Shown here: piece after piece, positions 4,734-25,047 of the stretch | Layout: each line of letters starts with the position of its first letter | How positions within the stretch are numbered: position 1 is the first letter of the stretch | Assembly (NCBI GenBank): GCA_018402725.1 | Contig: JAGYII010000001.1 | Span: 1-64,000 of the forward strand | Reading direction: 5' to 3' | From: Candidatus Izemoplasma sp. | Lineage (GTDB): Bacteria > Bacillota_I > Bacilli_A > Izemoplasmatales > Izemoplasmataceae | DNA: 64,000 nucleotides | Notes under the pieces: generated by a model | What the model was told of the DNA's origin: nothing | What the model saw: the letters and a program-made list of their open reading frames with translations, nothing else | The model's database searches: none | Made by a program: the position numbers and the translations under genes

Positions 4734-4767
4734 TTGACATGCACCCCTCTAATCCTTATGATATAAT
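4734..4767 (+). promoter_or_regulatory. Sigma-70-type promoter for the cmk operon
   Basis: TTGACA at 4734-4739, then 17 bases, then TATGAT at 4757-4762. A second perfect TATAAT overlaps at 4762-4767 but would give a 22-base spacer, so TATGAT is the better -10 for this -35. The start codon at 4792 follows with a GGAG site. Confidence 0.75.
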
Positions 4768-4791
4768 GGTATGGGAAAAAAGGAGCACACC

Positions 4792-5442
4792 ATGGAACCG
4801 ATTCATATCGCTATTGACGGCCCTGCGGGTGCCGGAAAATCGACCATTGCCAAAGGACTCGCTCAAGCCTTAAATATCATTCATTTAGACACTGGAGCGA
4901 TGTACCGGGCAGTGACCCATCAAGCCCTTCAACTCGGCCTTGATTTAAGTGACCCAGAGGCATACGGTTTTATTGAGACCTTAGACTTTACCTTCAAAGA
5001 AGGAGAACTCTTTCTCAATCAAGTCAACGTAGAAACCTCAATTCGTAATCAAACCACCACCCAAAACGTCTCCTTAGTTGCGTCTCATAAATCGGTTCGA
5101 GATGCCCTGGTTAAAAGACAACAAGCGATTGCACTTAATCAATCCCTTGTTATGGACGGGAGAGATATTGGTACGGTGGTTCTTCCAAAAGCCCCGTTTA
5201 AATTTTTCTTAACCGCCGATCCTAAAACCCGTGCCTTAAGACGGCAACAAGAACTTTTAAAAAAAGGCGAATCCGCCGATTTAAATTTCCTCATTGAAGA
5301 TATAAAACGTCGTGACGATCTCGATTCAAACCGGCTTTTAAACCCCTTAAAAAAAGCCCCCGATGCCTTAGAAATCGATACGGCTCAGTACTCAATCATT
5401 GAACTCATTCAATACTTAACTCAAATTGTGAAAGAAGGCTAA
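4792..5442 (+). CDS. cmk: Cytidylate kinase
   Basis: Phosphorylates CMP and dCMP using ATP. The P-loop is IDGPAGAGKSTIAKGLA near the N-terminus, followed by LDTGAMYRA in the nucleotide-binding region, the MDGRDIGTVVLP motif and the lid region with RRQQELLKKG. At 216 residues it is slightly shorter than the usual 220-230. I preferred ATG 4792 over ATG 4771 because the AGGAG site at 4781-4785 fits only the former. The S1-protein and der genes follow closely, the conserved order cmk - S1 protein - der seen in Firmicutes. Confidence 0.95.
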   Translation: MEPIHIAIDGPAGAGKSTIAKGLAQALNIIHLDTGAMYRAVTHQALQLGLDLSDPEAYGFIETLDFTFKEGELFLNQVNVETSIRNQTTTQNVSLVASHKSVRDALVKRQQAIALNQSLVMDGRDIGTVVLPKAPFKFFLTADPKTRALRRQQELLKKGESADLNFLIEDIKRRDDLDSNRLLNPLKKAPDALEIDTAQYSIIELIQYLTQIVKEG

Positions 5443-5444
5443 TC

Positions 5445-6812
5445 ATGGAATTTAAAAACGTGAGAGAAGGCAGCATTGTTACAGGGACTATTTACGAAGT
5501 GAGAGCGACTGAACTCATTGTCGCAATTGATGGGGTTCCAACCGAAGGCACCCTCAGCTTAGAACAGATTTCAAAAAAACCCATTTTATCGTTGAAAGAT
5601 CTTTTTAAAAAAGGCGATTCGATTGACGTCCAAGTGATAAAAAAAGATGATGAAAATTTGATTCTTTCACGGTTAGATATCGAACGTCAAAATATCTTTG
5701 ATTCCCTTCAAGATTTCTTTAGCCAAGATCAAGCTTTTGAAGCCTTAGTCAAAGGGGCAAACCGGGGCGGATTATCCTTAGACTATGATGGCTACGAACT
5801 ATTTATGCCAGCGTCTGAAGTATCCACCACCTACACCGCGAGCTTAGCTGATTTTGGAGGTAAAAAGCTCTTAGTTAAAGTCATTGAAATTCGCCGTGAC
5901 AAAGTGGTTGTTTCTCATAAAAGTGTCGAAAAAGAAAGCCAAAAAATAAATAAACAAAAAGAACTCGAATCAATCAAAGTGGGCGACGTTTTAGACGGTA
6001 CGGTCATTAAGATTTTAGACTTTGGGGCCTTTATCCGTTTTGAATATGCGGAAGGGTTGGTTCACATTTCTCAGCTATCGCATCATCAAGTCGGTAAAGT
6101 CTCTGATGTATTAAAAGAAGGTCAAAAAGTCAAAGTTAAAGTCATTGACGCTGACGGTGATAAACGAGGTCTTTCCATAAAAGCCTTAGAAGCGACCCCC
6201 TGGGAAGCGTATGCAAAATCTCACAAAGAAGGCTCAAAAGTCACGGGTAAAATCATTAAAAAAATGCAATTTGGCTTTTTAGTGGAAGTGGCGCCTGATG
6301 TGGTCGGGATGGTCAATAAATTTGATTATTCTTGGGATCCTAACTATAACTTAGCGGGGCATGTCAATGAAGGCGATGAAATCGAGGTTCAAATCTTATC
6401 CCTCGATGCCAAAAAGCGCCGGATGCAACTCTCTAAAAAACATCTAGAATATAACCCATGGGATGACGTTAAAGTTAAAATTGGTGAAAAAGTTTCAGGC
6501 GTCGTAAAAGTGCTTCAATCAGGGGGCGCTCTCGTTGAAATCCAAGGGGTCAATGCCTATTTACCGATTGGTGAGATCAAAGAAGAACGCCTTGAACGGG
6601 TCGCTGATGGCTTAAAAGAAGGCGAAGTTATCAATGCCGTCGTTAAGAAATTTGATCCCCAACGCTGGTCTTTAGTTATTTCGAAGATTGCCTATGAAGA
6701 TCAAACGAGTCGTGAAGAGTATCAACAATATATGAAAACAGAATCCAAAGAAACTCAATCCCAAACCTTGGGAGAAATGTTTGCAGAAAAGTTTGCAAGC
6801 TTGAAAAAATAA
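5445..6812 (+). CDS. S1 RNA-binding repeat protein (RpsA/YpfD-like)
   Basis: 455-residue protein made of about five S1-type OB-fold repeats, at roughly residues 1-78, 95-168, 178-248, 260-335 and 348-418. The third repeat is the most canonical (GTVIKILDFGAFIRF ... GLVHISQLSHH). It corresponds to the YpfD group encoded between cmk and der in Firmicutes, which resembles but is not proven equivalent to ribosomal protein S1. It is likely a cytosolic mRNA- or ribosome-binding protein. It starts two bases after cmk and is followed by der after 9 bases, so all three are probably one transcript. Confidence 0.9.
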   Translation: MEFKNVREGSIVTGTIYEVRATELIVAIDGVPTEGTLSLEQISKKPILSLKDLFKKGDSIDVQVIKKDDENLILSRLDIERQNIFDSLQDFFSQDQAFEALVKGANRGGLSLDYDGYELFMPASEVSTTYTASLADFGGKKLLVKVIEIRRDKVVVSHKSVEKESQKINKQKELESIKVGDVLDGTVIKILDFGAFIRFEYAEGLVHISQLSHHQVGKVSDVLKEGQKVKVKVIDADGDKRGLSIKALEATPWEAYAKSHKEGSKVTGKIIKKMQFGFLVEVAPDVVGMVNKFDYSWDPNYNLAGHVNEGDEIEVQILSLDAKKRRMQLSKKHLEYNPWDDVKVKIGEKVSGVVKVLQSGGALVEIQGVNAYLPIGEIKEERLERVADGLKEGEVINAVVKKFDPQRWSLVISKIAYEDQTSREEYQQYMKTESKETQSQTLGEMFAEKFASLKK

Positions 6813-6821
6813 AGGAGCATT

Positions 6822-8123
6822 ATGGCCCTTACGATTGCGATTGTCGGACGACCGAACGTTGGTAAAAGCTCTCTCTTTAACCGACTCATTGGCGAACGCA
6901 AATCGATCACCGATGATACCCCAGGTCTAACTCGGGACCGTATCATCGCCAAAGCCACATGGCTTAACCAACCATATCAACTGATTGACACGGGCGGCAT
7001 TGATTTCGATGACGCCCCTTTTTTACATGAAATTCGGATGCAGGCCGAAATTGCGATGGATGAATCCGATGCGATTTTATTTGTCGTGGATGGTCGGACG
7101 GGACTCACCGATGTCGACATGGAGATTGCGAAACTCCTTTACCGAGTGAAAAAGAATGTCTACTGCGTAGTCAATAAACTCGACAGCGGGACGTCGGATA
7201 CGTTATATGAATTTTACAGCTTAGGGTTTGGCGATCCTTACCCCGTCTCGACGATTCATGGGCTTGGCGTTGGAAACTTATTAGAAGCTGTCTTTGAAAA
7301 TACCGAAGAAACGTTCCCAGAGTATGACCCATCGACCATTAAGATGTCGGTGATCGGCCGGCCGAATGTCGGAAAAAGTTCTTTAACGAATGCAATCATC
7401 GGTCAAAACCGCGTCATTGTCTCAGAGATTGCAGGAACAACGCGCGATGCCGTGGACACCCCTTTTACCCGGGATGATAAGAATTACGTGATCATTGATA
7501 CCGCCGGGATGCGGAAACGGGGCAAGGTCTATGAAGCCAGTGAAAAATACAGCGTTTTAAGGGCCCTCAAAGCGATAGAACAATCGGATGTATGCTTGAT
7601 CGTGATTGACGCCAGTGAAGGCATCTTAGAGCAAGATAAAAAGATTGCGGGCTATGCCCATGACGCCGGAAGAGCCAGTATCATTGTGGTCAACAAGTGG
7701 GACCTATTAGAAAAAGATTCGATGACCATGGCCCGGTTTGTTGAAAAAATCGAAGATGCGTTTCAATTTTTATCCTACGCCCCTATCGTTTTTGTTTCAG
7801 CAAAAGAAAAAACCCGACTTCATACGATTTTTGAAGAAGTCAATGAGGTCTATGAGAATTATCAAAAATCCTTTAAGACCAGCATCCTCAATGACGTCTT
7901 TAATGACGCCTTAACCTTTAATCCTCCGAAACGATTTAATAATGGGACATTTACCATCAAATATGTGACGCAGGCCTCGACTAAGCCCCCGACATTCTTA
8001 TGTTTTTGTAATGATCCGCATTTTTTACACTTCTCCTATGAACGTTATTTAAAAAACCGATTAAGAGAAGCCTTTGCCTTAAAAGGAACCCCCGTTCACC
8101 TGATTTTAAGGGAGAAAGAGTAA
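6822..8123 (+). CDS. der: Ribosome biogenesis GTPase Der (EngA)
   Basis: Tandem-GTPase factor for 50S subunit assembly. The first G domain has the P-loop GRPNVGKSSLFNRLIGE and DTGG; the second has GRPNVGKSSLTNAIIG, DTAGMRKRGK and NKWD. A C-terminal KH-like domain (about 350-433) ends with LRLREAFALKGTPVHLILR-like residues typical of the family. The length of 433 is standard. AAAGGAG precedes ATG 6822. It is the last gene of the cmk operon; the 140 bases after it hold the HU promoter and no clear hairpin. Confidence 0.97.
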   Translation: MALTIAIVGRPNVGKSSLFNRLIGERKSITDDTPGLTRDRIIAKATWLNQPYQLIDTGGIDFDDAPFLHEIRMQAEIAMDESDAILFVVDGRTGLTDVDMEIAKLLYRVKKNVYCVVNKLDSGTSDTLYEFYSLGFGDPYPVSTIHGLGVGNLLEAVFENTEETFPEYDPSTIKMSVIGRPNVGKSSLTNAIIGQNRVIVSEIAGTTRDAVDTPFTRDDKNYVIIDTAGMRKRGKVYEASEKYSVLRALKAIEQSDVCLIVIDASEGILEQDKKIAGYAHDAGRASIIVVNKWDLLEKDSMTMARFVEKIEDAFQFLSYAPIVFVSAKEKTRLHTIFEEVNEVYENYQKSFKTSILNDVFNDALTFNPPKRFNNGTFTIKYVTQASTKPPTFLCFCNDPHFLHFSYERYLKNRLREAFALKGTPVHLILREKE

Positions 8124-8202
8124 ACTTCAACTTGAATCAAGTGGATAATTTGTTTATTTTGACCGAAAAAACAATTTTTTTCGCTAAACGGTGCGATTAT
8201 TC

Positions 8203-8231
8203 TTGCAAAATGAATTTTTAGTTGATATAAT
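8203..8231 (+). promoter_or_regulatory. Promoter of the HU gene
   Basis: TTGCAA at 8203-8208, 17-base spacer, TATAAT at 8226-8231. The HU start follows 32 bases downstream with a strong GGAGG site at 8251-8255. Confidence 0.8.
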
Positions 8232-8263
8232 TTCATTAGATTTAAGAAAAGGAGGATGGTCAC

Positions 8264-8536
8264 ATGAATAAAACTGAATTAGTTGCATTGGTTGCTGATC
8301 ACGCTGGGTTAAGTAAAAAAGATGCTCAAGCGGCTTTAGATGCGGTACTTGAAGGCGTTAAAGGCGCATTAGTAAAAGGACAAAAAGTTGTTCTTACCGG
8401 TTTTGGAACTTTCGAAGTAAGAAGCCGTCAAGCCCGTACTGGTCATAACCCAAGAACAGGAGCTTCAATCAAGATTCCTGCTCAAAAATCTCCTGCTTTC
8501 AAAGCTGGAAAAGTATTAAAGGATGCAGTTAGATAA
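8264..8536 (+). CDS. hup: DNA-binding protein HU
   Basis: Small histone-like nucleoid protein that binds and bends DNA as a homodimer. The 90 residues match the family length, with MNKTELVALVADHAGLSKKDAQ at the start, GFGTFEVRSRQARTG entering the DNA-gripping arm, and RNPRTG-type residues (HNPRTGASIKIPA) with the conserved proline at the arm tip. It is a monocistronic unit with its own promoter and terminator, as expected for a highly expressed gene. Confidence 0.97.
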   Translation: MNKTELVALVADHAGLSKKDAQAALDAVLEGVKGALVKGQKVVLTGFGTFEVRSRQARTGHNPRTGASIKIPAQKSPAFKAGKVLKDAVR

Positions 8537-8550
8537 TTGACCTCAAGTAA

Positions 8551-8579
8551 AAATACCACTTCATGTGGTATTTTTTTTT
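8551..8579 (+). terminator. Intrinsic terminator after HU
   Basis: AAATACCAC (8551-8559) pairs with GTGGTATTT (8565-8573) around TTCAT, followed by a run of nine or more T. Confidence 0.92.
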
Positions 8580-8613
8580 GCTCTATGCTACGATATTTTA
8601 TAAGGAGTGTGTG

Positions 8614-11150: not shown

Positions 11151-11644
11151 AAATTCTGATTGTGAGTGACATTCACGGAGACGTGGATGCCTTTCAACAG
11201 ATTGTTAAAAATGAGCCTGCCGATCACATTGTTTCTTTAGGGGATTCAGAGTGTTCGGTGCAAGCCTTAAAACAGGTCGATACGATCATTCATGGGAATG
11301 CTTTGATGGATGTTGGTCAAGCTGTTGCTGTGAGGTCTTTTAAAGCCTTAAAAGTCGTCATGACCCACGGGCATTTAGCTCAGGTTAATCAAGGGGATGA
11401 AGGGTTAATTAAACTGCTTCAAGAACACCAAGCCCACCTCATCATGCATGGGCATACCCATCTTGCCCGGTTTATTCATCAACCGCCTTATTATTTCTTA
11501 AACCCAGGGGCCATTTTTGGACCTCGTGGTTCATGGCCTTCAAGTTATGCCCTCTTAACCGTTTCCGCAGCGACGTTTACAGTCACCTTTAAGAGCTTAA
11601 ATCAAACCATTCTCAAGACGGAAAAAGGAGTGATTCCCCAATGA
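11147..11644 (+). CDS. YfcE/MJ0936-family metallophosphoesterase
   Basis: Small calcineurin-like phosphodiesterase. Metal-binding motifs are VSDIHGD at the N-terminus, SLGDSEC, HGNA (replacing the usual GNCD), MTHGH and MHGHTH. Family members cleave simple phosphodiesters in vitro; the physiological substrate is unknown. In many Firmicutes this gene directly follows rdgB, as here. 165 residues is typical. ATGA overlaps link it to rdgB upstream and to the amylase downstream. Confidence 0.9.
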   Translation: MKILIVSDIHGDVDAFQQIVKNEPADHIVSLGDSECSVQALKQVDTIIHGNALMDVGQAVAVRSFKALKVVMTHGHLAQVNQGDEGLIKLLQEHQAHLIMHGHTHLARFIHQPPYYFLNPGAIFGPRGSWPSSYALLTVSAATFTVTFKSLNQTILKTEKGVIPQ

Positions 11645-13215
11645 AAAAAACGCTCTTACTAGCCTTAGGGCTCTTCACGATGTTCGTCTTAAGTGCGTGT
11701 GAACCCCCAACCGAAGAGCCGGTCTTAGCCTACCCTGAAGTTCGTAATTACTATCAGCTTTTAGTGAGAAGTTTTGCGGATAGTGATGGGGATGGGATTG
11801 GCGATTTTACGGGAATTAAAGAAAACCTCGATTATTTTGTTGACTTAGGGATCAATGGCCTTTGGCTTTTACCGATTCATCCCAGTGGATCTTACCATGG
11901 GTATGATGTGGAAGATTATTACGCCGTGAATGAAGACTACGGAACGATGGAAGAATTTGAAGCTTTAGTCGCTGCCGCCGCTGAAAAAGGGATTGCGATT
12001 ATGATTGATTTTGTGATTAATCATTCTTCCAATCAACATCCTTGGTTTCAAGCTTTTTTAGCGGGCGAAGCTCCGTATGATCAGTATTACCGGAAAATTC
12101 CAGCCTCCAGTGATATGCGCTTAAATCTGGGGTCATGGGGTCAAAGCATTTGGCACTCGACCGGAGATGGTTCTTTTTATGCCGGCTATTTTGGGGGCTA
12201 CATGCCCGACCTTAATTGGTCAAACCCTGACGTGGTTGAAGAAGTGATTAAGATTGCTGAATTCTGGGCGGAAAAAGGGGTCATTGGATTTCGGATTGAC
12301 GCCGCTTTACACATTTTTGGGTTAGGCGAATACCCTTCAGGGTTCCCCCTCTTAGATGAAACCTTATTTCAACTTGAGTACATGAAATTCAGAATACAAG
12401 ATAACTATCCTGAATCGTTTTTCATCGGGGAAGTGTGGACCTCCGCGAGTGTCTATCAAATCTTCCATGGGACGCTCGATTCAGTCTTTCATTTTGATTA
12501 CGGCAACGAAGTAGTTCAAGCCATCAACCAAGGTTTTTCAAGAAACTATGCGGACCGCGTGGTTCGTTGGTATGAAAATGCGTTAGAACAATCAGAAAAT
12601 TCAGTCCAAGCTCCGTTTTTAAGAAATCACGACCAAAACCGTTTAGCCTCAGGTTCTGAACCCGGGTATCAAAACTTAGGGGATGATTTTACGAAATTGC
12701 GACTCGCTGCTGAAATGTTATTGACTGTACCTGGGATGCCTTTTATCTACTACGGGGAAGAACTTGGAATGAAAGGAGAAAAGGCCTTTCAACCCCCTTT
12801 GTGGGATGCCACCACTCGGTTACCCTTTTTATGGCCCGACCAAAGAAAACCAACCTGGGTTTTTGATGAATTTGGCTATCTTGATACTTTCAATCGCCAA
12901 GTTGAAGATGCAATCACTCAACAAAGTGATCCTGAATCCTTACACCGTGTTTATCAAACCTTGCTTCATTTAAGGCTAGATTTCCCGGTATTAAGAGTCG
13001 GTTCGATACGGGTTTTTGAAGATAATCATCCGGGGATCCAAGGATTCTACCGAGAAAAAGAAGGGCATCAAACGCTTTTAGTACTCCATAACTTAACCGA
13101 TGAATCCTTATTGGTGAGTGGACTTGAACGTCGAGGAACTCTACTTTATGGTGATTTAGAGGGGTCTAATATCCCCGCTCAATCCACCGTCATCATCGGC
13201 TTAGAGAACGAATAG
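11641..13215 (+). CDS. Lipoprotein alpha-amylase, GH13 family
   Basis: Cell-surface glycoside hydrolase acting on alpha-1,4-glucans. A signal peptide ends in the lipobox LSAC (cysteine about residue 20), so the enzyme is lipid-anchored outside. The GH13 barrel shows YQLLVRSFADSDGDGIGDFTG, DFVINHSS, the nucleophile in GFRIDAALH (Asp about 220), the acid/base in FIGEVWT (Glu about 264) and the transition-state stabiliser in LRNHDQNR (Asp about 331). A short C-terminal beta domain follows. It is tied by an ATGA overlap to the phosphodiesterase and lies three bases before a DUF1189 gene. The fine specificity (amylase versus maltogenic or glucosidase) is not resolved. Confidence 0.92.
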   Translation: MKKTLLLALGLFTMFVLSACEPPTEEPVLAYPEVRNYYQLLVRSFADSDGDGIGDFTGIKENLDYFVDLGINGLWLLPIHPSGSYHGYDVEDYYAVNEDYGTMEEFEALVAAAAEKGIAIMIDFVINHSSNQHPWFQAFLAGEAPYDQYYRKIPASSDMRLNLGSWGQSIWHSTGDGSFYAGYFGGYMPDLNWSNPDVVEEVIKIAEFWAEKGVIGFRIDAALHIFGLGEYPSGFPLLDETLFQLEYMKFRIQDNYPESFFIGEVWTSASVYQIFHGTLDSVFHFDYGNEVVQAINQGFSRNYADRVVRWYENALEQSENSVQAPFLRNHDQNRLASGSEPGYQNLGDDFTKLRLAAEMLLTVPGMPFIYYGEELGMKGEKAFQPPLWDATTRLPFLWPDQRKPTWVFDEFGYLDTFNRQVEDAITQQSDPESLHRVYQTLLHLRLDFPVLRVGSIRVFEDNHPGIQGFYREKEGHQTLLVLHNLTDESLLVSGLERRGTLLYGDLEGSNIPAQSTVIIGLENE

Positions 13216-13218: not shown

Positions 13219-14055
13219 ATGTTTAGAAAAATACTTAAAGCCGGAATCACCTTGTCCGATCGATCCTTTCAACTATTTCAAGGCAAACTCATTACATTTT
13301 TTGTCTACTTTTTTTTCCTTAATCTTGTGATGTTTATTCCTTTGACGTTTTCGATCTATGAGCTTGATAGTTCGGTTCAAACCTTATTTGGGATAAATAT
13401 CAATGAACAGCTTCCTGATGATTTAGGGACCTTATTCCCTTCATCCTGTGAAATCGTGAATCAACAACTCCAATGTGATGACACAATTGAAACATCGTTT
13501 CAAGTTGAATTAAACCGTCCATTTACGGTGATAATTAACGCTCAAAGTGAGGCTTATGATGATTCTTTTGATCATTTGGTGTTAAAAGAATCCACCGCCT
13601 CATTAAGACTCAATAATGCCCAACTCGATCTAGATTACCGGGGGTTTTCTTACTTACCTTTTTCAGATTTAGAATCCCTCAGCAAAGAAGAAGTCTACAC
13701 CATCTTTTTTGATGGGTTTTATGGCTCGGTCCGTCCTTATTTTGCCTTGCCGATGATTTTAATTTTAGTAGGGGGCTATATTGCTTTAAACGTTGTTTTA
13801 TTATTTGGACTGAGTGGTTTTGCGATGTTATTTAAACTTACGATATCAGACCTACCGAACTATCAGGATATGTTGAAACTATTTATCATTGGCTCAACGA
13901 TTCCTGCGATGATTAATTTATTCATTGGATTCTTTGGGCTTTCGGCCTTTAGTTCGATCGTTTATAATTTCTTAACCCCGTTAATGGTCTTCATTTTATA
14001 TCGGCGGCAGGTCAACCGAATCGCGATTGAGCACCGTTTACAAAAAGCCTCTTAA
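13219..14055 (+). CDS. DUF1189-family membrane protein (YvdJ-like)
   Basis: 278-residue protein with one hydrophobic segment near the N-terminus (about 26-45), a roughly 120-residue presumably external region, and three further helices (about 175-265). This layout and the LPNYQDMLKLFIIGSTIPAMI motif fit DUF1189. A DUF1189 gene (yvdJ) sits in the Bacillus subtilis maltodextrin operon, and the position here beside maltodextrin genes matches. Its function is unknown; a role in stabilising or regulating sugar uptake is inference. The start has only a weak ribosome-binding site. Confidence 0.75.
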   Translation: MFRKILKAGITLSDRSFQLFQGKLITFFVYFFFLNLVMFIPLTFSIYELDSSVQTLFGININEQLPDDLGTLFPSSCEIVNQQLQCDDTIETSFQVELNRPFTVIINAQSEAYDDSFDHLVLKESTASLRLNNAQLDLDYRGFSYLPFSDLESLSKEEVYTIFFDGFYGSVRPYFALPMILILVGGYIALNVVLLFGLSGFAMLFKLTISDLPNYQDMLKLFIIGSTIPAMINLFIGFFGLSAFSSIVYNFLTPLMVFILYRRQVNRIAIEHRLQKAS

Positions 14056-14058: not shown

Positions 14059-14080
14059 CCTGTGAAAACAGGTTTTTTTT
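14059..14080 (+). terminator. Intrinsic terminator after the DUF1189 gene
   Basis: CCTGT (14059-14063), GAAA loop, ACAGG (14068-14072), then eight T. Confidence 0.85.
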
Positions 14081-14147: not shown

Positions 14148-14165
14148 TGTGTAATCGGTTACACA
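14148..14165. promoter_or_regulatory. LacI-family-type operator, upstream copy
   Basis: TGTGTAA-TCGG-TTACACA, a perfect 7+7 inverted repeat whose centre contains the TAAxCGxTTA pattern typical of LacI-family sugar repressors such as MalR-type regulators. It lies about 40 bases upstream of a second, weaker site that overlaps the -35. Confidence 0.7.
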
Positions 14166-14189: not shown

Positions 14190-14226
14190 TAAAAACGTTT
14201 ACATTTTTTGGTGAATTTGATATATT
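14190..14226 (+). promoter_or_regulatory. Promoter of the surface maltodextrin genes with overlapping operator
   Basis: TTTACA at 14198-14203, 17-base spacer, TATATT at 14221-14226. The operator-like TAAAAACGTTTACA (14190-14203) covers the -35 box. Its centre is 40 bp from the centre of the upstream operator. The start codon at 14277 has AGGAGGA at 14266-14272. Confidence 0.68.
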
Positions 14227-14276: not shown

Positions 14277-15830
14277 ATGAAGAAGTTACTAAAGTTATTC
14301 TCAGTGACAGCCTTCTTTATGGGAGTACTCGTCTCACTGAATTTAGTGGGCGCTGAGGAAATTACTACGACCTCAGAAGAAACCCCTTCCCGTAAAGTTG
14401 TGGTTCATTATCACCGCTGGGACGGCGAATATGAAGGCCGTACAGTATGGACTTGGAATACAGGAACAAACGGTTCACAAGCTCCCGTTGAGTTATCAGG
14501 AACCAGTTCTTTTGGTGGAACGTTCGATATCTTTATCGATGATGACGCCCAAAGTGAAATTGGTTTAATCTTACGATACGGCGCAGGCTGGGGAAATGGT
14601 CAAAATGACCGTGATGGTCTCATCCCTCCAGGCGGCGGCGATAAAGCAAACAAAGCCATCATCATCCGCGATGAAGCGGGAGAATTCACAGGCTTTGGAG
14701 AAGATGGCGTTAAACACGTCTTCGTCTTTGAAGGTAGCGATGATGTGATTTATCAAGATGAAACCCATGGACCCCTCCGTGAAGGTTACGGAACCTTAGC
14801 CGTGGTCTATTATGATCCCGCTGAATCCTATGACGGTTGGAACATTTGGACCTGGGATACAGGAACCGGTGGGTCTGCCCCTGCCAATGATACCGGTGTA
14901 CCCTTTAGTTTAGGCGCCCTTGATGTAGATGGCGCTGAGGGAGGCACTGAAATGTTCCGTGTCGCATTCTTGTCCATTGGACCTGACGCTGCCGATTCAA
15001 TCGGCTTCATCGTCAGAACCGATGCATGGGTTAAACAATGGGAACAAGATTTATTCTTAGATGTATCCGATATTAAAGGTGAAGGATTTAAAACCTTATT
15101 CTATATTGGTAATAGCGACGTCATCTACACTGAATTCAGTGAATTTGAAGCGGTAGCGAATGCCTTTGAAGTTGAAAATGGTAATTTAGAAGATGCACGC
15201 TCGTTATTGGTTGAATTCAATAAACCGATTCGGGTCAATACCGAAGAAGGCGATGTCGTTACAAGTATTTTTGATCCATCTTGGTTTACTGTGACAGATG
15301 GTTCAGGTAATGTGGTTCCTTTTACATCGATTTCTTATGAGCAAGGCGTCAATACGATTTCTCGCTTCATGGTCATCTTTGAAAATGAATTAAGAAAAAA
15401 TGTAGACTATACCTTTACGTATCAACAAACTGAAGAAGATATTCCAGCGGTCTTAGAATTTGCTGTACCGACCGAAGCTCCAACGATTACTGTCATTGGT
15501 TCAAGAAGCGTTACTTTAGAACTCGGTGACCGTTATTCACTCCCTACGTTTAGAGCAACGGAACAATTCTATGGTGAAAACTTACCTCTTTATAATGCAC
15601 GTGTTAAAGATGGTAGCGGCTTCTTATCCACCCGTGAAGCTGGTACTTATCAAATCGTTTTAACCGCGACGGACCGTTTTGGTAATGTCGGTGAAGAAAC
15701 CATCACCGTCACCGTTGTTGATCCATGTGAACCAAGCACTGCTGTTCCTGCGGTTCAAATTACCTTGTTAGCAGGACTCCCACTCTTGGCGGGTGCATAC
15801 TTTGCGCTTCGCCGCAAGGAGGACCAATAA
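14277..15830 (+). CDS. Surface glucan-binding protein with two CBM41-like domains
   Basis: 517-residue protein with an N-terminal signal peptide (cleavage near LVGAEE) and a C-terminal hydrophobic helix plus positive tail (LLAGLPLLAGAYFALRRKEDQ), so it is exported and held in the membrane. Two pullulanase-type CBM41 modules lie at about residues 38-160 and 165-285; each starts with VVHYHRWDG or VVYYDPAESYDGW, followed by WTW and an acidic EIGLILR/SIGFIVR strand. An Ig-like region follows (about 290-500). No catalytic domain is present. CBM41 binds alpha-glucans, so this is probably a non-catalytic starch/glycogen capture protein. It heads a unit with the binding lipoprotein gene one base downstream. 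Confidence 0.82.
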   Translation: MKKLLKLFSVTAFFMGVLVSLNLVGAEEITTTSEETPSRKVVVHYHRWDGEYEGRTVWTWNTGTNGSQAPVELSGTSSFGGTFDIFIDDDAQSEIGLILRYGAGWGNGQNDRDGLIPPGGGDKANKAIIIRDEAGEFTGFGEDGVKHVFVFEGSDDVIYQDETHGPLREGYGTLAVVYYDPAESYDGWNIWTWDTGTGGSAPANDTGVPFSLGALDVDGAEGGTEMFRVAFLSIGPDAADSIGFIVRTDAWVKQWEQDLFLDVSDIKGEGFKTLFYIGNSDVIYTEFSEFEAVANAFEVENGNLEDARSLLVEFNKPIRVNTEEGDVVTSIFDPSWFTVTDGSGNVVPFTSISYEQGVNTISRFMVIFENELRKNVDYTFTYQQTEEDIPAVLEFAVPTEAPTITVIGSRSVTLELGDRYSLPTFRATEQFYGENLPLYNARVKDGSGFLSTREAGTYQIVLTATDRFGNVGEETITVTVVDPCEPSTAVPAVQITLLAGLPLLAGAYFALRRKEDQ

Positions 15831-15831: not shown

Positions 15832-17196
15832 ATGAAAAGATTAGGATTCTTAAGTATATTTTTTATCGCTGCCATCGCCATTTCATTGACTTTAAGTGGT
15901 TGTGGAGGCGAAGAAGCGTGTGAAAACCGAGCTGAAGAAGGCGTTGTTTACAACTTTGATCAACTCTTCACGGATACAGTTGAACTCACCGTTTGGCTCG
16001 ATGACGAAGATTACTTCAATGCCTTAAAAGCGGCCTTTGAAGAAGCGAACCCAGATATTACTTTACGGTTTGTCGAAGTCGGATCGGTGGATGTTCGTCA
16101 ACGTTTAGAACTTTACTCAGGTTCTAGACAAGCGGCTGACGTCGTCGTTTATCCCCATGACCATATCGGGGCGGCTTTACAATCAGGATTACTCGCTGCG
16201 ATTGAAGGTAATCAAGCCACCGATTTAAGATCACGGATGATTGATTCTGCGTGGCAAACGGCTTCAGCGTGCTACAACTTCTCAAACAACACGATTATTG
16301 ATTGTGCCAGTCCTACCGATCAAGGTACCTTATTCGGCGCTCCACTTGTTGGGGAATCGGTAGCCTTGTTCTACAATAAAACCCTCTTAACTCAATTAAC
16401 CGGTTCAGATACACCTCCAGCGACGTTTGAAGCATTACTTGCTCAAGCCGCCCTTCCAGCTTTTAGCACGTTCTTAGATGGCCGTCCGATTGTTGGACTT
16501 GATGTTGGGAATGCGTATGATATGCATTTCATCTCTACATCATTTGGATTTGAACTCTTTGGTCCTGATGGCCAAGACCCAACGCGTGCGAATTTAAATT
16601 CACAAAGTGTCGTGGACGCTTTAACCTTCTTTAATGCGGAAGTTCGTCCCGCCCTTGGCAACTTACCATCCGCTGATTTAAGTGGTGAAGCGAACCGGAC
16701 CGCTTTTGAAGCGGGAGAAATTCCTTACATCATTGATGGTCCTTGGTCTATCAACCGTTACTTAGAAGCTGAAGTTGATTTTGGGGTCACCTTAATCCCA
16801 ACCATTCGTGGCACCAACCCAACGTCATTCTCAGGCGTTCAGCTGGCTTCGGTTTACCGTCAGTCTAGCAACCCAGATGCTGCCTTTAGACTCTTAGCTT
16901 TCATGACATCAGCTGAAGGGTTAGCGATTCTTTATCGCGAGAAAAACGTATTACCCGCCCTTAAAGACGTGTCTGTAGTAGAGGGTGTTTCAGATGATGC
17001 CTTCTTAAGTGGTATTTCAGCCCAACTTAACTTCTCTCAACCGATGCCAATTATTCCGGAAATGGGATTCTTCTGGTCCAATGCGGGAAGCATGTATTCA
17101 AATTCATGGAACGGCACAAGAACGCCTCAAGAAGCAGCTGATATTGCTCAACAAGGCTTTACGTCTCAGTCGGGGATTCCCCAATCAGAGGATTAA
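15832..17196 (+). CDS. malE: Maltodextrin ABC transporter substrate-binding lipoprotein
   Basis: Extracellular solute-binding protein of family 1 (MalE/MdxE type). The signal peptide ends in the lipobox LSGC, giving a lipid-anchored receptor for maltodextrins. Features are VELTVWLDDEDYFNALKAAFEEANPDITL at the N-terminus, GAPLVGESVALFYNKTLL around the hinge and AFEAGEIPYIIDGPWSINRYLEA, typical of maltose receptors. ATG 15832 is chosen for the AAGGAGGA site at 15816-15823; 454 residues. It follows the CBM41 protein gene immediately and is separated from the permeases by a hairpin that may allow excess receptor synthesis. Confidence 0.92.
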   Translation: MKRLGFLSIFFIAAIAISLTLSGCGGEEACENRAEEGVVYNFDQLFTDTVELTVWLDDEDYFNALKAAFEEANPDITLRFVEVGSVDVRQRLELYSGSRQAADVVVYPHDHIGAALQSGLLAAIEGNQATDLRSRMIDSAWQTASACYNFSNNTIIDCASPTDQGTLFGAPLVGESVALFYNKTLLTQLTGSDTPPATFEALLAQAALPAFSTFLDGRPIVGLDVGNAYDMHFISTSFGFELFGPDGQDPTRANLNSQSVVDALTFFNAEVRPALGNLPSADLSGEANRTAFEAGEIPYIIDGPWSINRYLEAEVDFGVTLIPTIRGTNPTSFSGVQLASVYRQSSNPDAAFRLLAFMTSAEGLAILYREKNVLPALKDVSVVEGVSDDAFLSGISAQLNFSQPMPIIPEMGFFWSNAGSMYSNSWNGTRTPQEAADIAQQGFTSQSGIPQSED

Positions 17197-17260: not shown

Positions 17261-19234
17261 ATGAAAATCAGTCCGGTGGTAATCCTTAAAACTGCGGCTT
17301 CCTCATTGATTTGGGGGCTTGGTCAACTCCTCAACAAACAGTGGCTAAAAGCCCTCTTTTTCTTTGGTTTTTTTGCCCTCTTTTTAACGATAGAGCTTTC
17401 GACTTCATCGTATGGTCAAGAGATTTCAATTTACAATTTGATGGCTGGGCAAAATATCACTTCATGAGACGTCTAAAGGGATTTTCAATGATTATTACTA
17501 TAACCTTTTAGATGAACGCTATGAAGACACATCGCTCTTAGAATACGTCGCAGATGTCAATGATTTGACCTATGATAAAGACTCTCAACTCTTTTTAAAC
17601 GCCTCAGGCATATCAGTGGAGCCTGAAAGTACAATATTCAGTTCAATGAAGAACAGCTCTAGGATTTTCTAGCCGAACAGATGCTCATCATTGATGAAAC
17701 CCGTAACTTACGCACGAATGGGTTTGAAGTCCTTCTTGAGTATGATGTTTTTAAAGCCTTTCAAGAAAGTATTATTGGCGGCTTAGGCGGCCGTGATAAC
17801 TACAATACGGATGCCTATAACAAAATGCTCGTCCAGCTGATGTTCCGTTTTGATGAAACGATTTACGAAAGTTACGCTGAAGTCTTCTTAAATCCTTTTC
17901 ATGAGAACGCTGGATTTTTCGTTAAAGGTTTATGGGGCGTTATTACCTTAGGAGTCACCCCCTCAAGAACCGTGACGGAGCATTACGAACTGACGTTCTT
18001 TATCCCTGATGGATTCTCCCGCCGAGGCGTCGAGCTCCAAGGGAATTTTTCGCAACAACTCTTATTACGAGGCATCATTTCTAATTTACTCTTGGTTTAT
18101 TTTATCGGTATTTTCATTTGGAACATTCGAGATGCCTTTAAAACGTCAAAAATTATTGAAGAAACTAAAAAAGTGCCCGATCAAGTCCAGTACTTTAAAG
18201 ACGTGTACGAAAATGCCTTTGAATACATTGTCTTGATGCCGGCTTTATTCTTAGTCACCTTTATTTCAGTGATGCCGATCTTATTTGGGATGTTGGTCGC
18301 GTTTACGAATTATGACGCTCAACACATCCCTCCCAATAATTTATTTACCTGGGTCGGTCTTGAAAACTTTAGGGTCATATTTACCCTCAATGAACAAGGC
18401 GGCCTTCCCTTTGGGACCCAGTTCTTTAGAGTTTTTAGTTGGACGCTAATTTGGGCCTTTGCCTCGACGTTTACCGTCTTTTTTGGCGGCTTTATCCAAG
18501 CCGTTATCTTAGCCAATAATCGCGTCGTCTTTAGAAAAATATGGCGGAGTTTACTGATTTTACCGTGGGCCATTCCTGCCCTTATTTCCCAAATGGTCTT
18601 TAACGTTATGTTTAGGGACCGAGGCTGGGTCAACCAAACCCTCAGTAACATCGGGGTCTATGATTGGCTCTTAGAAAGAGGCATGCTTGGAAGGTCCTTT
18701 GCCGATGCTGGAACGGGCTTAGACCGTTTGTTATACTTCGGTGAAGAAAACATCCAGTGGATATCCAATGAAGCCAATCCATGGTTTGTAAGAATATTTA
18801 TCATTGTCTTAAATATTTGGTTAGGATTCCCCTTCTTTATGGCTTTAATGACCGGGGTTATGACCTCAATTGACCGTTCATTATACGAGGCAGCTTCGAT
18901 TGATGGGGCCACCGGTTTCCAACAATTTAGGTTTATCACGATGCCGCTAGTCTTGTTTGCCACGTCTCCGCTCTTGATCATGACGTTTGCAGGGAACTTT
19001 AATAACTTCGGGGTGATTTACTTCATCACCCAAGGCGGACCGGGCGGTGACTTTACGACCGCCTTTGCCGGTCAAACCGATATCTTGATCTCGTGGATTT
19101 ATAAACTCACCACCGATGCCAATGTTCGTTGGTATTCAATGGCCAGTGTATTTTCACTATTAATCTTCCTCATTATTGGAACGATTTCTGCGTGGAACTT
19201 CACCCGAACACGGGCCTTTAAGGAGGAAATGTAA
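17261..19234 (+). pseudogene. malF: Maltodextrin ABC permease MalF/MdxF, N-terminal part disrupted
   Basis: Binding-protein-dependent permease. ATG 17261 (AAAGGA upstream) opens a frame that stops at TGA 17465-17467. Coding sense then continues one base over, from 17466 (GAG ACG TCT), to about 17620, encoding KGIFNDYYYNLLDERYEDTS and onward. It returns to the first frame near 17622-17627 (KYNIQFNEEQL), meets TAG at 17660-17662, and then runs open to 19234. The two shifts compensate, leaving one nonsense codon. The C-terminal 517 residues are intact, with six or more helices and the permease loop EAASIDGATGFQQFRFITMPLV. If the lesions are real, translation might restart at ATG 17681; if they are consensus errors, the gene is whole. 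Confidence 0.85.
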
Positions 19235-20292
19235 TGGGCTGGTTATCGATTACTGCCATCACCTTAATACTCCTATTTACCCATCAATCCCTGACCTATC
19301 AAATCGCCCAGAAACAAGGCCATTCAAAAGTCATTCCAGGGCTCATTGGCTTAATCCCTGGGTTTGGGATATTCTATTATCTAAAACTTAAACCTCCAGT
19401 AAGACCCTCAAATACAGGGAAAACTAAATCCGTCTTTAACCTTAAAAATATCTTAGGGACCCTCCTTTTATATACGGAGTTAGTCCTCTTAGGAATCATT
19501 GTCTTGATTCCAGTCGTTTATGTCATCGGGACAAGTTTAAACCCGCTCGCCGGGATTCCTAATCAAATTTGGCCGGATGAACCCACCTTGAAAAACTTCA
19601 TCTTCTTGTTTGAAGGAGAAGCGCAATACGGAACCCAAGTCAGAACCAATGAATTTGTGAGTTGGTATTGGAATACGCTTCAAGTCGCGTTCTTGACGAT
19701 GATTTTCTCGGTTTTATTTGTGACGGGTACGGCGTACGTCTTTGCCCGGTACAAATTTAAAGGTAAACGGGCGGGACTTTTGACCATCTTAGTCTTGCAA
19801 ATGTTCCCCAGTTTCTTAGGTTTAATTGCGATATTTACCTTGTTTCAAACCTTTGGTTTACTCGACCAACCCTTAGCCCTTGTCATCATTTATACCGCGG
19901 GGGCTGTGCCCTTTAACGTCTGGTTAATTAAAGGTTATCTGCAAGGGGTTCCCAAAGAACTCGATGAAAGTGCCCGCATTGATGGGGCCAACAAACTTCA
20001 AATTTTCTTTAAGATTATTATGCCCCTTTCTGTACCGATTATTTCATTTGTGGCGGTCACCCAATTCATGGCCCCTTGGCTGGATTACATCTTGCCTTCA
20101 TTCGTCATCGAAACCGAAGAGCGGTGGACGCTGGCTGTCGGTATTTTCCGGTTCATTAACGACCAAACAAGAATCAATTATCCCGCCTTTAGTGCTGCGG
20201 CCTTAATGATTGCCGCACCGATCACCATCTTATACATCGTCTTCCAACGATTCCTGATTGAAGGGATTACGGCTGGCGCAAATAAAGGCTAA
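19234..20292 (+). CDS. malG: Maltodextrin ABC permease MalG/MdxG
   Basis: Second membrane subunit of the maltodextrin importer. The 352 residues include two extra N-terminal hydrophobic segments (about 2-17 and 30-50) ahead of the usual six-helix core. The ATPase-contacting EAA loop is DESARIDGANKLQIFFKIIMPLS. The C-terminus ends ITAGANKG, close to the common GLTAGAVKG ending of MalG. TAATG overlap with malF indicates translational coupling. No MsmX/MalK-type ATPase is encoded nearby, so a shared ATPase elsewhere is likely. Confidence 0.93.
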   Translation: MGWLSITAITLILLFTHQSLTYQIAQKQGHSKVIPGLIGLIPGFGIFYYLKLKPPVRPSNTGKTKSVFNLKNILGTLLLYTELVLLGIIVLIPVVYVIGTSLNPLAGIPNQIWPDEPTLKNFIFLFEGEAQYGTQVRTNEFVSWYWNTLQVAFLTMIFSVLFVTGTAYVFARYKFKGKRAGLLTILVLQMFPSFLGLIAIFTLFQTFGLLDQPLALVIIYTAGAVPFNVWLIKGYLQGVPKELDESARIDGANKLQIFFKIIMPLSVPIISFVAVTQFMAPWLDYILPSFVIETEERWTLAVGIFRFINDQTRINYPAFSAAALMIAAPITILYIVFQRFLIEGITAGANKG

Positions 20293-20324
20293 AAAAAACT
20301 CACCCTCTGGGTGAGTTTTATTTT
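20291..20324. terminator. Bidirectional terminator between malG and the neopullulanase gene
   Basis: AACTCACCC (20297-20305), TCT loop, GGGTGAGTT (20309-20317), with an A-run on the left and T-rich tract on the right, serving convergent genes. Confidence 0.87.
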
Positions 20325-22105
20325 TGATAAAGTTTAAAACCGTCTTTTTCAACGGTATGATGGGCCTGACTTTCAAAAAGAACATGCGCCCCTTTAAAGC
20401 CGTATTTAGCCAGATCAATCACGTGATCAGGTCCCGTATTTAAAACCAATAATAACTCATTATCTTTATGGTAGATGATGAGGTCGCCTTCATGATGAAG
20501 GTGGCCCTCAGACGATCTTAAAGCAGGTAAGGTCTTTCTTAACTCAATGAGTTGTTTGAACCAGTCTAACAGTTCAAAATCCATTGCCTGCCAGGGCATC
20601 GGCCGCCGATTTTTAGGATCGTGGTCGCCATCCACCCCAATTTCATCGCCATAAAATAAACTCGGTGACCCAGGAAACGCGAACATGAAGAGATAGGCTT
20701 GTTTAAATTTATTGAGGTTTCCTTCGGTAATCGTCAGTAGACGAGCGGTGTCATGACTGTCGACTAAGTTATACATCGCTTCTAAGACCGGTTTTGGATA
20801 CGTCGTTATCAGTTGGTTGATCCGCTCGACAAATTCTAAAGCGGAGAGTTTCGGCATGTTTTTAACTTTCCCAAAGGTTTGCCAAAGCGGGAATAAGAGC
20901 CCATAATTCATGACCGCATCATATTGGTCTCCGCGGAGCCAAGGATTTGAAATATCCCAATTTTCGCCGACGATATAAACGTCAGGGTCAACTTTTTTGA
21001 GGGTGGTTCTAAATTCACGCCAGAACCGGTGTGACACTTCATTTGAAACATCGAGCCTAAATCCATCGACCTTCGTTTCTTGAAGCCAGAATAAAGCCAC
21101 ATCCATAAAGTAAGCAGAGACGTCTGGGTGATCGGTATTGACTTTGGGCATAAACGGAGTAAAGCCAAACGTTTCATAATTAAGCGTTTGAGGCGTTAAT
21201 TTATCTTTTAAGACCGCGTAAGGCAAGTCTTTAAGTTCTTCTAACGTAAAGGGAAGGAGAGGCTTGGTGGGATCTTTGATAAAGAAATAGTCATGATAAG
21301 GGGACTGATTTCCTTTTTCTAAGACGTCTTGAAACCAAGGGTGAAAAGCGCCAATGTGATTAAAAACAAGGTCTAAGACGATTCGAATCCCTTTTTCATG
21401 GGCTTTTTCAACCAGTTCTTTAAAGTCTTCCAGGGTGCCAAATTCAGGGTCAATCGCATAATAATCCGTGGTGTCATATTTGTGTTGGGAATAGGCTTCA
21501 AAGATCGGGGTCAGGTAAATTGCCGTAAAACCAACCTCAAAAAGATAATCGAGTTTTTCGGTGATGCCTTTGAGGGTTCCCCCGTATTTATCTTGATTCG
21601 ATAAATCATCAATGTTTGTCCAGGCTTTTAAAGAAGCATCGAAAGGGGCCGCTTGATGCCGATGAAACCGGGAAGGGAAAATAGAAACCCACACTTGATC
21701 TTTAGACCACGCCGGGGCGATGAAACGATCGGCGTCTAAAAGATATGGAAAATTAAAATAGTTAAAAAGGTTAAATTTCAGGTCAGGATGTTGATTTAAG
21801 TCAATGATTTCTGAAGTCCCAAATAGATAAGACCCATCTAAAACAAAAGCATATTTCATCCGTTTATAAGGGGGCGTAAAACTTGCAAAATAAACATCAT
21901 GAAGGGCTGTTGTGGCCTCTAAAGTCATGGTGACTTCCGCAAATTTGACCCATCCATTTTGATCATAGTGAAAAGGATCCCCTGCGATGACCTCGACGGA
22001 TTTTAAAAGTCCTTTTTTAGCCTTTAAACGAAGGTGAATCGTCGCTCCATCAAAGGCATAGGCCATGGCCGATTTTGCTTCGTGATAAACACTTGAATAG
22101 TCCAT
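20318..22105 (-). CDS. Neopullulanase / cyclomaltodextrinase-type GH13 enzyme
   Basis: 595-residue enzyme without a signal peptide, so cytoplasmic. An N-terminal CBM34-like domain (about 1-120, YHEAKSAMAYAFDGATIHLR) precedes the GH13 barrel. Catalytic segments are GFRLDVSNEV (nucleophile Asp), IVGENWD (Glu acid/base) and VDSHDTARLL (Asp). This architecture is that of GH13 subfamily 20 enzymes, which open cyclodextrins and cut pullulan or maltodextrins. It should act on imported oligosaccharides. The start ATG at 22105 shares a TAATG overlap with the end of the pullulanase gene, so the upstream in-frame extension is rejected. Confidence 0.9.
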   Translation of the reverse strand: MDYSSVYHEAKSAMAYAFDGATIHLRLKAKKGLLKSVEVIAGDPFHYDQNGWVKFAEVTMTLEATTALHDVYFASFTPPYKRMKYAFVLDGSYLFGTSEIIDLNQHPDLKFNLFNYFNFPYLLDADRFIAPAWSKDQVWVSIFPSRFHRHQAAPFDASLKAWTNIDDLSNQDKYGGTLKGITEKLDYLFEVGFTAIYLTPIFEAYSQHKYDTTDYYAIDPEFGTLEDFKELVEKAHEKGIRIVLDLVFNHIGAFHPWFQDVLEKGNQSPYHDYFFIKDPTKPLLPFTLEELKDLPYAVLKDKLTPQTLNYETFGFTPFMPKVNTDHPDVSAYFMDVALFWLQETKVDGFRLDVSNEVSHRFWREFRTTLKKVDPDVYIVGENWDISNPWLRGDQYDAVMNYGLLFPLWQTFGKVKNMPKLSALEFVERINQLITTYPKPVLEAMYNLVDSHDTARLLTITEGNLNKFKQAYLFMFAFPGSPSLFYGDEIGVDGDHDPKNRRPMPWQAMDFELLDWFKQLIELRKTLPALRSSEGHLHHEGDLIIYHKDNELLLVLNTGPDHVIDLAKYGFKGAHVLFESQAHHTVEKDGFKLYQK

Positions 22106-25013
22106 TAAGCATCTCTTTTTTTCAAGAACATAAAGGCCCCAGCGCCCCCTAAGGCCACCAAACTGATGACTCCGACACTGATCCAAATGAAGAGATTGTT
22201 GGAGCCGGCTGGGGTTTCTTCACCTGGCAAGACTGGGTTTAAATCCGCTTCAGAGGGCCACTCAGCGCCCCGTCTTAATTGGTATAATACGACGGTTTCA
22301 TTGGGCATGAGGCGGTAGTTTGCAGTATCGAGGACTTGAATGGTTTCAAGCCCCGCTTGGTCTTTACCGACCACCATATTCCAGGTCATGTTTAATAAAT
22401 CTAAGTTGGTTTCACCATTGGCATTATTATGCGCAATGATGGTGTATTCCCAGGGGTTATTGGGGTTGGGATCATAGATGAATAATGCCGCGAGGTCTCG
22501 ACTGCTTGAAAAGACATTAAAAGTGGTGTTTTCAGCAATTTCTTCGGCGCTCATCGCAAAGATTGGGGCCGCTTTTCTTAAGGCTACCAGTCCGCGATAA
22601 TATTCATAGGTATCCGCATGGTCAATTTTCCATTGCCAGTTGATTTGATTGACTTCATCGGGAGAGCGATAAGAGTTATGGTCAAATAAATTATCCCCAT
22701 CACACGTTCTTTCTCCCCCGGCCGGAACGACACAGGGTTTTGTTCTAAGTAGTTCAACGCCCCCGTGTAAGAAGGGGATCCCTTGGGCCGTCATGACGAT
22801 GGCGTTGGCTTGTCGATGCATGGTTTTAATCGTCTCTAAATCTAAGTCTGTGGTCGATAAAACGAGTTTGTCATGAAGGGTATTATTGTCATGCGCACTG
22901 ACATAATTAACGGTTTGATTCGGTTCAAACGCCCAAAGGCCTTTAGGTAATGCGGGTGCGTTGATTTCAGGATGATTCACATACCCAATCATTCCCGCTA
23001 ATATGCGTTGATGAATGGCTAACGAGTTTTCACCATGAAGCCAGCCACCCTCTCTTGAATTAAAGACGGATCCTTTGACCCCATCTCTTAAGTCATCATT
23101 GAAGACCGAAATGTTTTCCATTTGATCAAGGTTCGCATTGTAAGCAGCGATTTCGGCTGGAAGTTGTGAGCCGCCCGCATCCCAAGGTTCACCGTAAACA
23201 ATGATGGTTGGATCAATCGCATGAAGCGCATCTCTAACGGCTTGCATGGTTTCAACATCATGGAGTTTCATGAGGTCAAACCTAAACCCTGAAATGTTGT
23301 ATTCCTCGGCCCAAAAGACCACCGAATCCACAATCAGTTTACGAACCATCGCTCGCTCAGAAGCCGTCTCATTCCCGGTGCCTGATCCATTAGAAAACTG
23401 ACCGCCTTCAGTGAAGCGGAAGTAATATCCTGGTAGAATCTTTTCAAAGTTAGAATCTCCAGAGGTCGCGGTGTGGTTATAAACAACGTCTAAAACGATA
23501 CGAATATTACGATCATGGTAATTTTGAACCATTTGTTTAAATTCAGTGATTCGGACGCTTCCATCATAAGGATCAGTGGCATAAGAGCCTTCAACGACAT
23601 TAAAATGAAGCGTCATGTAACCCCAGTTGAAAACCCCATCGTGAACCCCATAATAACGAGGATCTTCAATCCGAGTTTCATCAATGGCCATTCCAATATC
23701 ATGGATGGGGAATTAAGTGAACATGGGTCGCCCCAAATTCGACAATGTGATCCATTCCAGTGGTGACGCCTTGATAGGTGGTGCCGGGTTCACCAAAACC
23801 CAGATATTTCCCAGGCCACGCTTCCGTGCCATTCCAGCTTTCATGGGAGGTGTAGTCACGGATGTGGGCTTCATATAAAATAATTTGGCCCATGGAACGA
23901 ACATTATTGGGTCTAGCATACTGCCAATTGGCCGGATTAAGCCGTTCAAAATCAACGACCATCCCCCGGTTTCCATTGACACCGGTGGATCTGGTGTAAG
24001 GGTCGACGACATCACGGTGAGTCACGTTGCCTTGATCAATATCATAGGTGTAATACACCCCGTGAAGATCACCAGGTAAGGTGATTTCAAATACACCCTT
24101 GTCCCCTAGGGTCATCTCGTGGGTACTGATCGGATGTGTTGCTGCCAGGGACCCCGTTAAAACTAGAAGTGTCCGCGGGATGTCCTACTTCATATAAATT
24201 GAGGGTGACCCCTTGTGAAATGGGCGCCCATAATTTAAACGTGGTTGAATCTTTAGAATAAATGGCTCCAAGTTGACCATCGTAATAAAAAGCGTCATTA
24301 AATGCTTGAGAATTATATAAGCCCGCAAACCCGATGGGGTTGGATTTCGGCCGGTCTGGAAAATCGGGGAACGTTATATTAAGACGATAGGCTTTAGATA
24401 AGTCAATGGGTTCATTGAACATAACCGTTACCGTGTTTCCCGATTTAGTATAGTTTCTAAAAGTAGCCGGTTGACCATTGGCGGTAAAAGAAAAATCCGA
24501 TTCAGTAAAGTTATCGGTTGTCGCTGTAAAGCGAACTTCTTGAAGAGAGATAAATTCTATTTGACTGATGCGGTGGGATAAATCCACGTCATCGAGCCCG
24601 TAATAGACCGTAGGGTCTCCAGAGACTAAGAAAATTTCAATCACTCCATTTGCATCCGCCTTTGACATATCAATGAATAAGTCAACAGCGACATCTTTCG
24701 TCCAGTCCGCTTGTCTTACAATGACTCCCACCCGGGTGGCGCCTTCTAAATGAGTGCCAGCTAAAGAATAGGTTAATTGACGGGAACCGGTGACAGGATG
24801 ATAGCCGTTAAAATTAATATTCTGACCATCCCCTGAGTTGGGTTGGTTTTGCCATAACCATAAAGACCAAGGGGCATACTGATCATCAAAACGATGATAG
24901 TTCACGATCAGGGTTTCGGCCGTGGCCGCTTGAATTTGAAAAACGGAAATAAAGCTTAATATGAGCGTAAGAAAGGTAATAATAAGACCTTTTTTTATAG
25001 GGGTAATGAGCAT
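22105..25013 (-). pseudogene. pulA: Surface type I pullulanase, two frameshifts
   Basis: Debranching enzyme cleaving alpha-1,6 links. The reading order is signal peptide, CBM41-like domain (TLIVNYHRFDDQYAPWSLWLW), linker, CBM48-like region (YSKDSTTFKLWAPISQGV), GH13 barrel and a C-terminal membrane helix (SVGVISLVALGGAGAFMFLKKRDA). Catalytic motifs are GFRFDLMKLHD, VYGEPWDAGG and VSAHDNNTLHD; NWGYMTLHFNVVEGSYATDP is the pullulanase signature with variation. Frame breaks lie near 24134 and 23707-23710. Dropping base 24134 gives SNTPISTHEMTLGDKG, and dropping one G of the GGGG at 23707-23710 gives HLIPIHDIGMAIDETR, restoring one frame. ATG 25013 has AAGGAGGA upstream. Sequencing error or recent loss cannot be told apart here. 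Confidence 0.88.
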
Positions 25014-25028
25014 GAAATCCTCCTTAAT

Positions 25029-25047
25029 GTATAGCGCTTTCATTATA
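25029..25047 (-). promoter_or_regulatory. Pullulanase promoter -10 with overlapping cre/LacI-like operator
   Basis: On the minus strand TATAAT (plus 25042-25047) runs directly into TGAAAGCGCTATAC (25029-25042), which matches 12 of 14 positions of the catabolite-responsive consensus TGWAARCGYTWWCW. A repressor here would sit on the transcription start. Confidence 0.6.

Follow-up and report, generated by a model that had tools for sequence, protein, structure and literature searches.

We describe a gene of Candidatus Izemoplasma sp. (GenBank assembly GCA_018402725.1, contig JAGYII010000001.1) that encodes a non-catalytic surface protein with two CBM41 modules and stands at the head of a maltodextrin transporter operon. 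The open reading frame occupies exactly positions 14277-15830 (+) of the window, the whole 64,000-nucleotide stretch that was analysed, and codes for 517 aa. We consider it probable that the product is an exported, anchored, non-catalytic alpha-glucan-binding protein that serves the MalEFG importer of this wall-less, Izemoplasma-type bacterium; its most likely role would be to hold starch or glycogen at the cell surface. The coding sequence is laid out as follows:

14277..14354, + strand: signal peptide (approximately residues 1-26, ending in ...NLVGA), read from the sequence; helix at 2-23 in the model
14388..14756, + strand: CBM41 module 1 (residues 38-160), profile match to pullulanase CBM41
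14787..15137, + strand: CBM41 module 2 (residues 171-287), profile and fold match (2j72)
15165..15470, + strand: first Ig-like domain (approximately residues 297-398), model and fold match to S-layer Ig-like domains
15471..15725, + strand: second Ig-like domain, Bact_surface_Ig-like (approximately residues 399-483), Pfam and fold match
15744..15812, + strand: C-terminal membrane helix followed by an Arg/Lys-rich tail, read from the sequence

A preliminary description of this DNA had proposed the two CBM41 modules, and the domain search bore this out. The Pfam family PUD (PF03714, CBM41) matched two stretches of the protein (whole-protein E 6.4e-21, 75.5 bits against a cut-off of 25), and in a whole-genome search modules 1 and 2 separately reached 46.8 and 37.5 bits, each above the PUD cut-off of 25; the genome holds three PUD stretches in total, the third being in the pullulanase. 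Profile-profile comparison with the CBM41 modules of the neighbouring pullulanases gave E 2.2e-19 for module 1 and E 9.2e-15 for module 2, the two modules matched one another at E 9.6e-12, and a sequence search of the PDB returned the pullulanase CBM41 chains 2wan, 2j71, 2j44, and 2ya1. The tryptophans that mark CBM41 membership (W-x-W and a later W with K) are present in both modules: module 1 retains W58, W60, and W105, with R112-D113 where the CBM41 consensus has K-D, and module 2 retains W188, W191, W193, W251, and K253. W105 is invariant in an alignment of 33 members of the family, as are W188 and W191 in an 11-sequence alignment (A3). We take these consensus tryptophans to stack on the sugar, following the structural work on Thermotoga CBM41.

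The structural match to CBM41 also held for the module that the fold search resolved individually, module 2, with module 1 not being separated. In an AlphaFold model of the protein (11 sequences, mean pLDDT 75, pTM 0.55), module 2 matched the Thermotoga CBM41 2j72 (Z 11.6, 2.4 Å over 97 residues) and the Eubacterium rectale CBM41 6az5 (Z 10.8). The modelled pair matched the tandem CBM41 of streptococcal pullulanases (2j43, Z 11.1; 2ya1, Z 11.0) with an rmsd of 13 Å, so that the placement of the two modules relative to one another is not fixed by the model. What had been called an Ig-like spacer is indeed Ig-like but consists of two domains; the Pfam match to Bact_surface_Ig-like lies just below its cut-off (26.5 vs 27), and in fold comparison the pair is closest to domains of S-layer proteins and adhesins (SbsC, Sap, SraP). 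The C-terminal hydrophobic helix has a 19-residue Kyte-Doolittle maximum of 1.77, and on reading the signal peptide we saw no lipobox cysteine. The protein is non-catalytic, as proposed: GH13 is absent, no catalytic family reached its cut-off in Pfam or NCBIfam, and what NCBIfam returned, a stretch of pullulanase N-terminus and matches at the level of chance, fell below cut-off throughout. Across the 33 members, the window included, PUD was found in 32, whereas GH13, the catalytic domain of a pullulanase, was found in none, no member matching an alpha-amylase family. A phage origin was rejected, there being no PHROG match.

The gene lies within the following arrangement:

11641..13215, + strand: GH13 amylase-like lipoprotein (lipobox LSAC)
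13219..14055, + strand: DUF1189 membrane protein
14059..14080, + strand: terminator-like hairpin and T run 3' of the DUF1189 gene, found by eye and missing from the list given by a scan
14148..14165, no strand assigned: palindromic operator-like site of 18 bases, TGTGTAATCGGTTACACA (0.02 expected by chance, both strands counted)
14192..14205, + strand: second operator-like site, AAAACGTTTACATT, over the -35 box, read from the sequences
14198..14226, + strand: promoter-like TTTACA-17-TATATT
15816..15823, + strand: malE ribosome-binding site, AAGGAGGA, within the 3' end of the CBM41 gene
15832..17196, + strand: malE-like maltodextrin-binding lipoprotein (lipobox LSGC)
17261..19234, + strand: malF permease, with two frameshifts and stops here and intact at 657 aa in three genus relatives
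19234..20292, + strand: malG permease
20318..22111, - strand: neopullulanase-type GH13 with an N-terminal domain, no signal peptide seen
22105..25043, - strand: pullulanase with one CBM41 and a C-terminal membrane helix, in three ORFs

The adjoining receptor lipoprotein gene of the preliminary description is the solute-binding protein gene malE, which starts one base past the stop of the CBM41 gene and has its ribosome-binding site in the last CBM41 codons; the CBM41 gene is the first gene of a transporter operon CBM41-malE-malF-malG. Because a terminator-like hairpin follows the DUF1189 gene, the CBM41 gene probably heads a transcription unit of its own. A site similar to TGTGTAATCGGTTACACA occurs at about -120 in three genus relatives, and AAAACGTTTACATT is identical in all four genus members. 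The operon may be controlled by a LacI-type repressor; the genome has five LacI-type genes, none of them within the window, and one OB_MalK match, on another contig. An operator common to the whole class was rejected, the two-site pattern being confined to the genus, with at most scattered weak matches elsewhere.

The gene order, the pair of binding modules, and an architecture of stalk and anchor together suggest a capture mechanism in which glucan binding is predicted. On the outer side of the membrane, starch, glycogen, or long maltodextrin would be retained by the CBM41 modules, with the two Ig-like domains serving as their stalk; the anchored amylase, joined in relatives by an anchored pullulanase, would cut the chains beside the MalE receptor, and MalEFG would take in the fragments and pass them to cytoplasmic glucosidases. 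A passage of PMC8397711 reports growth of one cultured Izemoplasma on starch and maltose.

The relatives of the protein that carry a name, at 10 loci, come from metagenome assemblies labelled Candidatus Izimaplasma, Acholeplasmatales, Mollicutes, and Tenericutes. A search with the 517-aa protein against 101 genomes, the window's own included, found matches at E 0.001 in 51, which is not a count of orthologues since many match only through the Ig-like domains or through pullulanase CBM41. Within the family of the window, the CBM41 protein is encoded immediately 5' of malE in all 11 loci that could be read, that of the window among them (L042 and L046 stop too soon, and L051-L053 differ in layout), and the same holds for the five loci of a second family (L048 via a minus frame), whose CBM41 protein measures 800-840 aa and has the CBM41 pair doubled. 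In L051 (8916-18547), L052, and L053, a pullulanase, a 1206-1556 aa surface protein with a weak CBM41 match, and a 605-617 aa protein are followed by a 1010 aa protein with a C-terminal solute-binding protein (checked in L051) and then two permeases. In the phylum, PUD is present in 89 of 392 genomes, and stand-alone CBM41 proteins proved widespread in the class when these 392 were searched; the premise that CBM41 normally sits inside pullulanases describes most matches but not these proteins. The class-wide sample comprised 17 stand-alone PUD frames and three long-frame loci, the frames of G243, G302, and G268 being left out; 16 of the 17 stand-alone frames adjoin malE on its upstream side, the exception being L080. 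Two observations weigh against the proposed role, namely this exception and the weakness of module 2 among the Acholeplasma-like proteins.

Choosing loci by their CBM41 frame is biased, so the test was reversed to start from malF. The malF of a genus relative was searched against the 392 phylum genomes, 35 of which matched at E 1e-60. For the 24 genomes with malF at E 1e-140 or better, a protein of the CBM41 family is encoded directly 5' of malE in 22 of 22 readable loci (G139 and G112 stop at a contig edge, and the CBM41 frame of G098 is partial), which answers the proposal that conservation of the neighbours be checked. Among the 12 weaker matches, which represent other malF lineages, no CBM41 protein precedes malE in any of the 10 readable loci (L100 and L101 stop at contig edges), and G173 (L103) has the amylase, DUF1189, and malE genes in the same order with no CBM41 gene in between. 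The CBM41 gene is thus tied to the maltodextrin transporter more than to the pullulanase, and the earlier suggestion that glucans are passed to the pullulanase gives way to one in which malEFG is the constant partner, the pullulanase being frameshifted here.

The MalF proteins of this lineage are also distinctive. They measure 657-882 aa in the 33 loci with a CBM41 protein and 457-577 aa in 12 loci without one, and the extracytoplasmic stretch between TM1 and TM2 spans 221 to 445 residues in 12 long MalF proteins and 46 to 76 in seven others (in L035, TM1 falls below the threshold). Examples of the long malF are found at L034 9361-11334, L064 707-3067, and L079 11319-13967. Pfam gave no match above cut-off for the extra domain; an AlphaFold model of a 280-residue TM1-TM2 piece from one member (pLDDT 75) is mainly helical and had no PDB match by Foldseek at E 0.001 and none by VIA-align at Z of 5 or more over 159 chains. 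Thus, no known fold was matched, which does not in itself make the fold a new one. In a tree built on the permease part that all sequences share, the 33 malF with a CBM41 protein form one clade (100/97). The pairing of the CBM41 protein with a long MalF therefore has a single origin and counts as one evolutionary event; its weight comes from the lack of any observed loss within the clade and from the placement of two loci of another family, L077 and L078 (group f16; genomes G252 and G239), whose malF sits inside the window-family part of the tree. That position suggests that the CBM41-malEFG cluster moved as a unit by horizontal transfer. One could go further and picture the CBM41 protein as a docked importer subunit that contacts MalE and the TM1-TM2 domain of MalF, so that in wall-less and related Bacilli capture and import at the surface would be the work of one complex, comparable to a Sus complex but with a single membrane; we regard such direct contact as speculative and quite unlikely.

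Whatever the protein does in relatives, its gene in this genome might be a remnant of a starch pathway under loss, a possibility that we entertain tentatively. When ORFs of three genus relatives were compared with the window, 35 stretches of it were matched, of which only malF (17261-19234, +; two frame changes and an in-frame TAG) and the pullulanase (22105-25043, -; two frame changes) are split; with both broken, the local system may be decaying. Both split genes belong to the same pathway. On the other side, the frames of the CBM41 gene, malE, malG, the amylase, and the cytoplasmic GH13 genes are uninterrupted, and indel errors in a draft assembly could give the same frameshifts, which may reflect either assembly error or decay.

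We think it unlikely that the protein mainly serves the pullulanase as a set of extra binding modules on a separate polypeptide, its link to malEFG being one of operon neighbourhood only. The pullulanase does adjoin the cluster in most loci, often divergently, and partnered pullulanases carry one CBM41 where an unpartnered one (L081) carries four, but it is malE that is the constant neighbour, and here the pullulanase is broken while the CBM41 gene is open. Anchoring points both ways: CBM41 protein and neighbouring pullulanase agree in helix status in 26 of 27 pairs (12 both with the helix, 14 neither, one mismatch), yet this agreement tracks family lines. The domain that follows the CBM41 pair, which is Ig-like, gave no sign of relationship to the post-CBM41 domain of the pullulanase in profile comparison (hhalign probability 0.2%), and descent from the N-terminal half of a pullulanase was for the same reason rejected beyond the CBM41 modules themselves. 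The L081 pullulanase (4305-8591, +) is 1428 aa long, and no stand-alone CBM41 frame is listed in its genome; the listing suggested a mutual exclusion of stand-alone CBM41 proteins and multi-CBM41 pullulanases, which we do not claim, as it is confounded by ancestry.

The C-terminal helix is itself variable, occurring in 19 of 35 proteins and absent from 16 (one truncated protein excluded), mostly those of the Acholeplasma-like group f12. Membrane anchoring, correctly proposed for the protein of the window, is therefore not a constant of the family and cannot be the conserved core of its function. Several surface proteins of this bacterial order (L045, L047-L050 with both genes, L097, and L052) have C-terminal tails that run from TGC or SGC through a hydrophobic stretch to Arg/Lys residues, much like a C-terminal sorting signal of the cysteine type. 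A function as adhesin or surface coat, fixing cells to particles that bear starch such as algal or plant debris and having no part in feeding, would fit the likeness of the Ig-like pair to S-layer and adhesin domains (SbsC, Sap, SraP). However, operator-like sites overlie the promoter of the gene, which is the first of an operon for maltodextrin import and stays with malEFG even in relatives that have lost the anchor, and this makes such a reading very unlikely.

A Sus-like starch-binding scaffold of different construction is the best-supported reading of the protein, with binding predicted, and its nearest functional analogues would be SusE/SusF, Sas20, and Cgt. SusE and SusF are outer-membrane lipoproteins that accompany SusCD. 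Like them, the protein described here is non-catalytic, has its modules in tandem (tandem X25 modules are described in PMC9112005), and is encoded with transport genes, and it is predicted to bind alpha-glucan at the cell surface; it differs in having CBM41 modules, a C-terminal membrane helix in place of a lipoprotein anchor, no outer membrane, and an ABC importer, and the locus has no susC or susD genes, the neighbours being malE-malF-malG and GH13 genes. Sas20 and Doc22 of the Ruminococcus bromii amylosome are described in a section of PMC9112005 as starch-binding proteins of a Gram-positive lineage that lack a catalytic domain, and the 517-aa protein, with its predicted binding, is of the same general type; theirs are other CBM types held to a scaffoldin by a dockerin, whereas here there is a transporter operon, and no dockerin or cohesin match was found by Pfam at E 0.01 in the 33 members. 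The protein is thus a member neither of the SusE/SusF family nor of the amylosome families.

Cgt of Actinoplanes sp. SE50/110 is, according to a passage of PMC7275007, a secreted protein made only of a starch-binding CBM, with binding shown in vitro. It resembles our protein as an exported, CBM-built protein with no catalytic part, and differs in its single CBM20, its proposed multimers, and in not being described as an importer gene. Its deletion caused no growth defect on starch (same passage), which by analogy would count against our preferred explanation of a role in glucan capture. The streptococcal pullulanases SpuA, PulA, and SAP (the last described in part of PMC2582482) share tandem CBM41 on a surface-anchored protein, consistent with the fold matches to 2j43 and 2ya1, but they alone have a catalytic domain (GH13) and are anchored to the wall by LPXTG. 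In the passages of the open-access PMC literature consulted, we noticed no CBM41 protein without a catalytic domain, nor one of this kind in Izemoplasma or Acholeplasma; a section of PMC7301438 notes pulA in environmental Tenericutes and makes no mention there of the present protein.

Non-catalytic glycan capture is a hallmark of the Sus systems of Bacteroidetes and of the R. bromii amylosome, and a malEFG lineage in which a CBM41 gene comes first points to a simple equivalent of the Bacteroidetes proteins for starch capture on the Gram-positive side. For annotation, stand-alone CBM41 frames should not be labelled pullulanase. The system is small and testable, as it has a single binding protein, a single receptor, and a single permease, whose additional domain is unexplained. 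If our reading is correct, capture built from CBM41 would have been kept with one malEFG lineage class-wide, free-living wall-less bacteria included, and surface capture would be a standing part of an ABC importer.
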